A DNA stretch of 64,000 bases from an uncultured Anaeromyxobacter sp. (lineage in GTDB: Bacteria; Myxococcota; Myxococcia; Myxococcales; Anaeromyxobacteraceae), in the NCBI GenBank assembly GCA_903904005.1, contig CAIVAR010000034.1, positions 1 to 64,000 of the forward strand, read 5' to 3'. Position numbers and translations under genes: made by a program. The notes under the pieces are model-generated. The model did not search any database. It saw only the letters and a list, made by a program, of their open reading frames with translations, and was not told the origin of the DNA. This document shows positions 39,124-43,122 of the stretch, in pieces; position 1 is the first letter of the stretch, and each line of letters starts with the position of its first letter.

Positions 39124-40579
<1,456 letters not shown>

Positions 40580-40591
40580 GCGCCGGGGCGG

Positions 40592-40987
40592 TCAACCCTT
40601 CGGGGCCCCGGCCTCGACCGGCTTTCCGGCCTTGAGCCATCCCTGGATGCCGTCGGGCATCACCCAGACGTTGACGTGACCGAGCTTGGCCGCCTCACGG
40701 GCGGCCGAGTGGCTGGCCGTTCATCTGGGGTTGGAGCAGTAGAAGACGAGCCGCGCACCCTTGTCGGTGGGCAAGGAAGCCGTCCACTTCTTGCCGGTCA
40801 GGAAGCGTGCGCCGGGCAGGTGGTTCTTCGCGTAGACCTCGTCGGGATTGACGTCGTAGACGACGACGTCCTTCGCCGCGATCCACTTCTCGACCTGGTC
40901 CATCGTCGCGTCCTGGTAAGGGTCCGCGGCCAGTGCGGTTCCGGTGAGCCCGAGGAGCGCGACGAGGAGGGAAAGCCTTCCGTTCAT
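40592..40987 (-). CDS. Periplasmic rhodanese-domain selenoprotein (in-frame TGA as Sec)
   Basis: Read straight through TGA 40723-40721, this frame gives a complete 131-residue exported rhodanese: signal peptide 1-20 (ending GTALA), DVVVYDVNPDEVYAKNHLPG, then LVFYCSNPR (Cys84), the TGA at residue 89, and TASHSAAREAAKLGH...DGIQGWLKAGKPV to the stop at 40592. In this family the pattern is FYCxNxxC(T/P)ASHxAA, so TGA stands exactly where a Cys is expected. Both halves are fully coding and continue the same domain. A SECIS-like hairpin begins 11 bases after the TGA. Without readthrough the protein would lack the active-site loop and C-terminal helix. The start at 40987 has GGAGG 8 bases upstream. 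It follows moaA on the same strand. A nonsense mutation is the main alternative. Confidence 0.75.
40685..40709 (-). promoter_or_regulatory. SECIS-like stem-loop
   Basis: On the minus strand CTCGGCCGCC-CGTGA-GGCGGCCAAG folds into a 10-bp stem with one mismatch and a 5-base loop. It begins 11 bases after the in-frame TGA, and its loop starts 21 bases after it. The loop has G as its second base. Bacterial SECIS elements lie immediately 3' of the UGA, with a G in the first two loop positions and roughly 16-37 bases from UGA to loop; this fits. Confidence 0.65.
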
Positions 40988-41056
40988 GTGGGTGACCTCC
41001 GCCCGGATGTGCCCGGGAAGCGGTCCCCTAACGGGGCCCCGGGCGGGGCGCCACCG

Positions 41057-42034
41057 TCAACCGCCGATCCGAACCATGGTCTCGAACGACTCGTCCTCCA
41101 TGTGGTGCCGGTCCCGCTTCCGGGAGAGCCCCTCGCGGATGGCCGCCTCGATCGCCTCGCCGGAGGCCGACCGGAGGAGCCCCACGAGCGGGACCTCGTC
41201 CCTGCCGCCCAGGCAGGCGCGCAACGCCCCGGAGGCGCTCACCCGGACCCGGTTGCAGTCGCCGCAGAAGTTCTCGGTGATGGCCCCGATGAAGCCGAGG
41301 AGCCCTTGGCGAAGGACGTCGCCGTCGAGGGAGGCGCCGCGCATGTGCCGGGCCGGGCCCCATCCACGGGTGGCGTCGGGCACGAGGGTCACGCCCTGCT
41401 CCTCGAGGAGGCGTTGCATCTCGGCCACTGACACCGGTGTCCCACCCCCGAACGGCATGAGCTCGATGTACCGGGCGATGGCCCCGTGGCGCCAGGCGAA
41501 GCGGGCCAGGTCCCCGAGCTCGCCGTCGTTCACGTCGCGCAGCACCACCGTGTTCACCTTGAGCGAGGGGAATCCGGCCGCGGCCGCGGCCGCGATGCCG
41601 CGCCGGATGCGCTCCACGTCGGCAGCCCGGCCGGACAGCCGCTCCAGCCGGTCGCCGTCGAAGGTATCGAAGGAGACGTTGAGCTGTCGCAGGCCGGCCT
41701 GGCGAAGCGGCCCGGCGAGTTCCTCCAGCCGGTGGCCGTTGGTGGTGAGGGCGACCTCGTCGATCCCGGGCGTGGCGGTCAGGTCGGCGACGATCTCGAC
41801 GATGTCCTTGCGCAGCGTGGGCTCGCCCCCGGTGAGGCGCACCCGGCGGATGCCCATCTCGGCGAAGATCCCGACCATCCGCCGGATGTCGGACCGGTCG
41901 AGGACATCCCCGTGCGCCGTCTCGAGCCCCGGGCTGCAGTAGCTGCAGCGAAAGTTGCAGCGGTCGGTGAGGGAGAGGCGCAGGTAGACGATGTGCCGGC
42001 CCTGGGGGTCGACGAGCGGGGTTCGGGGCGTCAC
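41057..42034 (-). CDS. moaA: GTP 3',8-cyclase MoaA (molybdopterin synthesis)
   Basis: This 325-residue radical SAM enzyme performs the first step of molybdenum cofactor synthesis. The N-terminal cluster motif is CNFRCSYC (about residues 26-33); the C-terminal second cluster is CGDCNRVRV plus a later Cys in GALRAC. The C-terminal VRIGG pair of glycines, needed for activity in studied MoaA, is present. GTG 42034 overlaps the stop of the HD-GYP regulator gene (GTGA), so the two are coupled. The rhodanese follows after 69 bases. Confidence 0.95.
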   Translation of the reverse strand: MTPRTPLVDPQGRHIVYLRLSLTDRCNFRCSYCSPGLETAHGDVLDRSDIRRMVGIFAEMGIRRVRLTGGEPTLRKDIVEIVADLTATPGIDEVALTTNGHRLEELAGPLRQAGLRQLNVSFDTFDGDRLERLSGRAADVERIRRGIAAAAAAGFPSLKVNTVVLRDVNDGELGDLARFAWRHGAIARYIELMPFGGGTPVSVAEMQRLLEEQGVTLVPDATRGWGPARHMRGASLDGDVLRQGLLGFIGAITENFCGDCNRVRVSASGALRACLGGRDEVPLVGLLRSASGEAIEAAIREGLSRKRDRHHMEDESFETMVRIGG

Positions 42035-43122
42035 AGGGGGCGGCTCTCCAGCCGGGCGATGGTCTCGATCCCCGGCTTGCCTATGGCGAGGAGCGCGTCG
42101 ACGACTTGCGGGTCGAACTGCGTCCCCGACTGGCGGGTGATCTCCTGGATGGCCTGGTCGAACCCGAGGCTCTTCCGGTACGGCCGGTCGGAGGCCATGG
42201 CGTCGAGGGCGTCGGCCACCGCGAAGATCCGGGCCCCGAGCGGGATGGCCTCCCGCTCGAGCCCCCGGGGGTAGCCGGAGCCGTCGAACCGCTCCTGGTG
42301 GGAGAGCACGATCTCGGCGGGCACCTTGAGGAAGCCGATCGACTTCAGGATGTTGAACCCGGTCTGGGGGTGCTTGCGCATCTCCTCCCATTCCCGCGGG
42401 TCGAGCGGGCCGGGCTTCAGGAGGATGGCGTCGGGGACGCCGATCTTCCCGATGTCGTGCAGGAGGGCGCCGCGGAAGATGTCGTTGCGCTGGGTCATCG
42501 GGACGCCAAGACGGTCGGCCAGGGCGAGCGTGTAGCGCGCCACCCGCTGGGAATGGTCGCCGGTCTCGTGTTCCCGCGCGTCGAGGGCGGCCACCAGGGC
42601 GTAGAGGGTGCTGTGGTAGGCAGCCTCCACCTCGACGAGGGCCCGGCGCAGATCGCCGGCCTTCTCCTTGACGGTCCGCTGGAGACTCGAGCGGTAGCGC
42701 TCGCGGGCCCGCTCGTCCCTGCGCCGGGAGAGGGCGCGCTCGATGGCCCGCAGCAGGTCGCTCGACTTGGGCGGCTTGAGGAGGTAGTCGGTGGCGCCCC
42801 GGCGAAGGCACTCCACCGCGGCCTCGGTGTCCCCGAAGGCCGTGAGCATCACCACGGCGGTGTCGGGGCGCTCCCGGCGCAGCCGGTCGAGGAGCCAGAG
42901 CCCGTCCTTGCCGGGCATCTTCATGTCGCTGAGGACGAGGTGGGGCTCGGTGGCGCGGACCAGCTCGAGCGCCTCCTCGGCTCCCGAGGTCGTCCGGCAC
43001 TCGTAGCCCTCTTCGGCGAGGACCATGCCGAGAGCGTCGCGGACCACCGCGTCGTCGTCGACGATCAGCACGCGTGCCGCCGTGCCGTCGGCCGGTTCCA
43101 GGCTCGACGAGTCGCCGGTCAT
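42031..43122 (-). CDS. Response regulator with HD-GYP domain
   Basis: This 363-residue protein has a receiver domain (1-135; VLIVDDDAVVRDAL, phospho-Asp in LVLSDMKMPG, Lys in YLLKPP), a short helical linker and an HD-GYP phosphodiesterase domain (about 190-355; HSQRVARYT, LLHDIGKIGVPD, HQERFDGSGYPRG). HD-GYP proteins break down cyclic di-GMP. The GYP motif is intact. ATG 43122 is preceded by GAAGGTG. It is divergent from lipA; its kinase is not adjacent. Confidence 0.93.
   Translation of the reverse strand: MTGDSSSLEPADGTAARVLIVDDDAVVRDALGMVLAEEGYECRTTSGAEEALELVRATEPHLVLSDMKMPGKDGLWLLDRLRRERPDTAVVMLTAFGDTEAAVECLRRGATDYLLKPPKSSDLLRAIERALSRRRDERARERYRSSLQRTVKEKAGDLRRALVEVEAAYHSTLYALVAALDAREHETGDHSQRVARYTLALADRLGVPMTQRNDIFRGALLHDIGKIGVPDAILLKPGPLDPREWEEMRKHPQTGFNILKSIGFLKVPAEIVLSHQERFDGSGYPRGLEREAIPLGARIFAVADALDAMASDRPYRKSLGFDQAIQEITRQSGTQFDPQVVDALLAIGKPGIETIARLESRPL

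Follow-up and report, generated by a model that had tools for sequence, protein, structure and literature searches.

The window analysed here, a stretch of 64,000 nucleotides of DNA taken as a whole, carries on its minus strand a small gene for a predicted exported rhodanese with an in-frame TGA inside its active-site loop. The features of the locus are given below by coordinates, strand and identity, with the basis for each in parentheses.

39185..40579, plus strand: thiC, convergent neighbour, not part of the system (Pfam, synteny)
40592..40987, minus strand: exported Cys84/Sec89 rhodanese gene, 131 aa, from ATG to a TGA stop (translation)
40688..40706, minus strand: bacterial SECIS-type hairpin, 7-bp stem 40706-40700/40694-40688, loop CGUGA 40699-40695 (register, covariation)
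40697..40699, minus strand: loop codon CGT, rare in the window's genome and the source of the loop GU (codon counts)
40721..40723, minus strand: in-frame TGA, codon 89, predicted to be read as selenocysteine (Sec) (column with only TGA or Cys, Sec machinery of the genome)
40736..40738, minus strand: TGC codon for Cys84 at the catalytic position (FYC), start of the rhodanese loop (homologue alignment)
40928..40987, minus strand: putative signal peptide MNGRLSLLVALLGLTGTALA (judged by eye; low pLDDT over the first 20 residues)
40995..41000, minus strand: Shine-Dalgarno sequence GGAGGT, 7 nt 5' of the ATG (sequence)
41057..42046, minus strand: moaA, for a radical SAM protein of molybdenum cofactor synthesis; lies upstream, outside the system (Pfam)

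Translation of the minus strand from 40987 to 40592 gives 131 residues, in which the TGA at codon 89 and the terminal stop are the only stops; the gene reads MNGRLSLL...LVFYCSNPR-TGA-TASHSAAREAAKL...EAGAPKG-stop. The frame and the TGA at 40723-40721 reported in the earlier note are thereby exact, and its forecast that gene finders would end the gene at residue 88 was borne out by the ORF tool, which by itself returned an 88-residue protein. The window gene is probably mis-annotated as truncated. Coding signal, domain and frame do continue past the TGA as claimed: the Pfam Rhodanese match (PF00581) spans it (residues 28-119, E 2e-13, 51 bits against a cut-off of 22.2), and the GC content per codon position follows a coding pattern on both sides (0.61/0.43/0.89 upstream, 0.70/0.56/0.86 downstream). 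Compared with the nearest orthologue, the half after the TGA shows 7 changes at first, 2 at second and 12 at third codon positions, and it evolves as coding sequence under purifying selection.

The rhodanese gene lies on the same strand as moaA, some 70 bases from it, and thiC faces it from the other side. In a congener (G015) moaA adjoins the rhodanese gene too, and in several genomes of the window's bacterial family thiC has kept its place beside the gene. The neighbourhood in a second family (f2) holds an OPT-like transporter, judged by eye. Taken together, moaA and thiC in the window's family and the transporter in f2 indicate no single substrate.

Column 89 of the homologue alignment is occupied by TGA in 37 and by Cys in 64 of 101 readable sequences, with other residues in none, which upholds the claim that the TGA replaces a Cys; examples of the Cys form are FYCANEKCTASH and FYCSNPMCRKAP. 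The 37 TGA loci, the window's included, are spread over 35 genomes, that is, 36 relatives in 34 other genomes. Orthologues with a single TGA at codon 89 were found in nine other genomes of the same bacterial family, and a scan of 195 genomes of the phylum added further families with both Sec and Cys versions. Four distant matches in a plasmid collection were not included, and widening the set around genome G341 for Sec-bearing genomes reached a class of just two genomes. Cys84 is invariant across all homologues read except TsoB, which has Sec there, and the proposed Cys84/Sec89 pair (CxxxxU) is a conserved motif. The protein tree calls for at least 6-8 exchanges between Sec and Cys, a count taken from a short alignment in which many forks are weak.

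Several variants of the motif were seen alongside the orthologues. A second paralogue in the same bacterial family, with the motif FYCRGxGU(T/S)LS, accounts for five TGA loci (L027, L028, L030, L038 and L039, in G009, G005, G004, G006 and G003, respectively). Sec and Cys copies of the rhodanese occur together in eight genomes (G150, G151, G149, G148, G153, G154, G111 and G103). Members from family f2 and from G155 (L115-L124, L126, L127 and L152) carry xACH after the Sec or Cys, giving UxACH or CxACH; this is the pattern by which c-type haem is attached in exported proteins, though the likeness may be coincidence.

The genome from which the window comes is 98% complete and holds the whole set of genes whose presence the earlier note had asked to be checked: a tRNA-Sec with anticodon UCA (80 bits), SelB (over its cut-off) and SelA on one contig (C37), and SelD. 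The SelD gene has an in-frame TGA of its own in the motif GAG-U-ACK. Sec-containing SelD is a well-known selenoprotein, and through it the genome supplies its own positive control for Sec decoding. Across the 35 genomes with a TGA-bearing rhodanese, tRNA-Sec was found at the strict cut-off in 29, and SelB scored over its cut-off in five of the other six. In the remaining genome (G008, 66% complete, TGA gene present) neither tRNA-Sec nor SelB was found over the cut-off, which incompleteness of the genome can explain.

The hairpin described in the earlier note, GGCCGCC-CGUGA-GGCGGCC, begins 14 nt 3' of the TGA; its place just downstream and the G (with U) in its apical loop are as in a bacterial SECIS element. 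When the gene was recoded synonymously with the codon usage of the window, a stem at least as long as the observed one arose in 8-9% of trials (P about 0.08-0.09); the Ala-rich peptide could bring about such a hairpin by chance, and the hairpin of the window gene by itself was rejected as proof. A search against Rfam around the rhodanese gene gave chance matches and nothing more. The family comparison is much stronger. Of the 37 Sec genes, 34 have a hairpin in register, as does 1 of the 64 Cys genes; the remaining three Sec genes have a slightly shifted hairpin with a 6-7 bp stem and the loop GGUC. Compensatory changes in the stem (GC to CG, CG to GC and CG to UA) were counted in 10 cells, against 0 of 500 shuffles and with lower scores for slid controls. 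A T-ending loop codon occurs in 27/37 Sec genes and 1/39 Cys genes of the same phylum (Fisher P 3e-11, uncorrected for relatedness). T-ending codons are rare in the phylum; in six genes of the window, CGT accounts for 7 of the 163 Arg codons. The hairpin evidence is therefore weak in the window gene and strong across the family.

The shifted hairpin with the loop GGUC was seen in two members of the second paralogue. The one Cys gene with the hairpin, a member of that paralogue in the congener G016 (L029/L173, G016:C98:4064-4399, minus strand), retains a perfect 7-bp stem-loop in SECIS register with the loop AGCGA, probably the remnant of a SECIS element after a recent switch from Sec to Cys.

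Given these observations, the UGA at codon 89 would be decoded as selenocysteine by SelB and Sec-tRNA, guided by the hairpin 14 nt downstream. Insertion of Sec at residue 89, as put forward in the earlier note, is very probable from the Sec machinery, the column restricted to Cys or TGA and the recurrence of the TGA; a genome lacking selB and selC, homologues with an unrelated residue, or resequencing to TGC or TGT had been named as findings that would speak against it, and none of them turned up. We are highly confident that the gene encodes a predicted exported single-domain rhodanese with hairpin-guided Sec decoding at this codon.

A single change from TGC to TGA in one genome would look identical to what is seen in the window, the gene then being a pseudogene or the TGA a sequencing error, with a broken Cys codon and a protein truncated at residue 88. 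The TGA is not a sequencing error because the same codon is TGA in 36 loci of 34 other genomes, complete single-contig genomes among them. The location beside thiC is moreover preserved across several genera, the downstream half is under purifying selection, and the domain runs on without further stops; we give this explanation practically no weight. It is also very improbable that the UGA is read by a near-cognate tRNA as Trp or Cys, or that the protein works in its 88-residue form, with a regulatory role for the hairpin. Low-level read-through of certain stop codons does occur and speaks for this reading. Against it stand the strict alternation of TGA and Cys at column 89, the Sec machinery with its Sec-containing SelD, and stem and loop features specific to TGA genes, and an 88-residue protein would stop within the active-site loop, without the rest of the rhodanese fold. 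Decoding as selenocysteine is the reading followed below.

Among known families, TsoB (NF045694), for which a 2025 paper by Haft and Tolstoy is cited, resembles the window protein in having a rhodanese domain with Sec at alignment column 89. It differs in having Sec rather than Cys at column 84 and a fused DsbD-like membrane part (the model has 572 positions); the window protein has Cys84, lacks the DsbD part and scores 42 bits against the TsoB cut-off of 805. A TsoB in G384 (L192, G384:C202; 880.7 bits against the same cut-off) reads FYUAGLTU, with TGA at both columns 84 and 89, and adjoins a frame that resembles a multihaem cytochrome and has several CxxCH motifs. Two exported multi-rhodanese proteins of another phylum (L183, G341:C326; L190, G384:C328) read FYC....UTLS with one TGA at column 89. 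They share Cys84, Sec at column 89 and a hairpin with a CGUGA loop with the window protein, but are about 500 residues long with several rhodanese domains, whereas the window protein has one.

A 2026 review (PMC13188914) catalogues five forms of rhodanese selenoprotein and gives UxxS as the motif of form 1. PMC9312934 attributes the form 1 rhodanese-like protein of Geobacter, WP_010941598.1, to Zhang and Gladyshev 2005; the window protein also combines PF00581 with UxxS (U89-T-A-S92), a likeness in domain and motif. LYCAU (NF041203, form 3) is likewise a small rhodanese selenoprotein that retains the catalytic Cys, but its Sec lies two residues after the Cys (CxU) and not five (CxxxxU), and the window protein reaches 41.8 bits where the model's cut-off is 115. 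Selenoproteins of a similar kind are therefore already known, since TsoB has Sec at column 89 and rhodanese selenoproteins have been catalogued (PMC13188914), and the earlier claim of an unannotated selenoprotein is supported but less new than it was presented. The window protein falls far below every cut-off of the NCBIfam models.

AlphaFold2, run with nine orthologues, predicts a rhodanese fold (pLDDT 88.8, low values at the ends only). Profile, fold and a catalytic Cys that opens the active-site loop all place the protein in PF00581. The alignment gives a six-residue loop C-S-N-P-R-U with Cys84 first and Sec89 last, where we take the general definition of the six-residue rhodanese active-site loop to apply to Cys84-Sec89. 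Foldseek matched the model to GlpE, YgaP, BH2092 and the polysulfide transferase Sud (1qxn). Sud of Wolinella, a periplasmic protein that is not known to contain selenocysteine, is a small rhodanese fold and a structural match, but shares 18% identity with the window protein. A literature search for rhodanese loops with a second Cys found nothing.

From these comparisons we infer that the window protein is most likely a periplasmic sulfane-sulfur transferase or reductase. Cys84 would accept sulfane sulfur in the periplasm and carry it as a persulfide, Sec89 would help to release this sulfur or hand it on, and the resulting Cys84-Sec89 selenenyl-sulfide would then be reduced by a periplasmic thiol donor. 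Resolving or passing on the persulfide with the help of Sec89 would be the most economical chemistry, and the fusion of TsoB to a DsbD-like part suggests reduction through a periplasmic thiol relay; we hold the scheme as a whole to be about evenly balanced between right and wrong. It is possible, though we lean against it, that the protein acts instead in redox defence or in selenite or selenium handling, with Sec89 as the attacking residue in a reductase- or peroxidase-like manner. Selenoproteins of known function are for the most part oxidoreductases (reviewed in PMC9312934), a selenium-substituted rhodanese is on record as cited in a passage of PMC5877670, and in one bacterial family the Sec stands in UxAC beside a further Cys. 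Against this, the invariance of the loop Cys84 outside TsoB favours rhodanese chemistry.

The exported, single-domain Cys84/Sec89 rhodaneses make up a family found mainly in Myxococcota. A list of 11 selenoproteins of A. dehalogenans published in 2006 contains no rhodanese (PMC1794560). The TGA gene is carried by G002 (C1:1886249-1886623), which is very probably A. dehalogenans, and was thus very probably missed. Our tentative proposal, which has nearly as much for it as against it, is that these proteins form a distinct, undescribed exported family in several families of Myxococcota, with at least six Sec/Cys exchanges, in which Sec would act in the periplasm, on sulfur or selenium, as the partner of the Cys that bears the persulfide.

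The Cys84/Sec89 rhodaneses are an additional selenoprotein family that escapes the current NCBIfam models, and because both these models and the A. dehalogenans list (PMC1794560) miss it, many myxobacterial annotations are probably truncated. As many close Sec and Cys versions exist, some within one genome, the family is a good natural test of the value of Sec in a rhodanese, and it is equally suited to studying the gain and loss of SECIS hairpins within a coding sequence.
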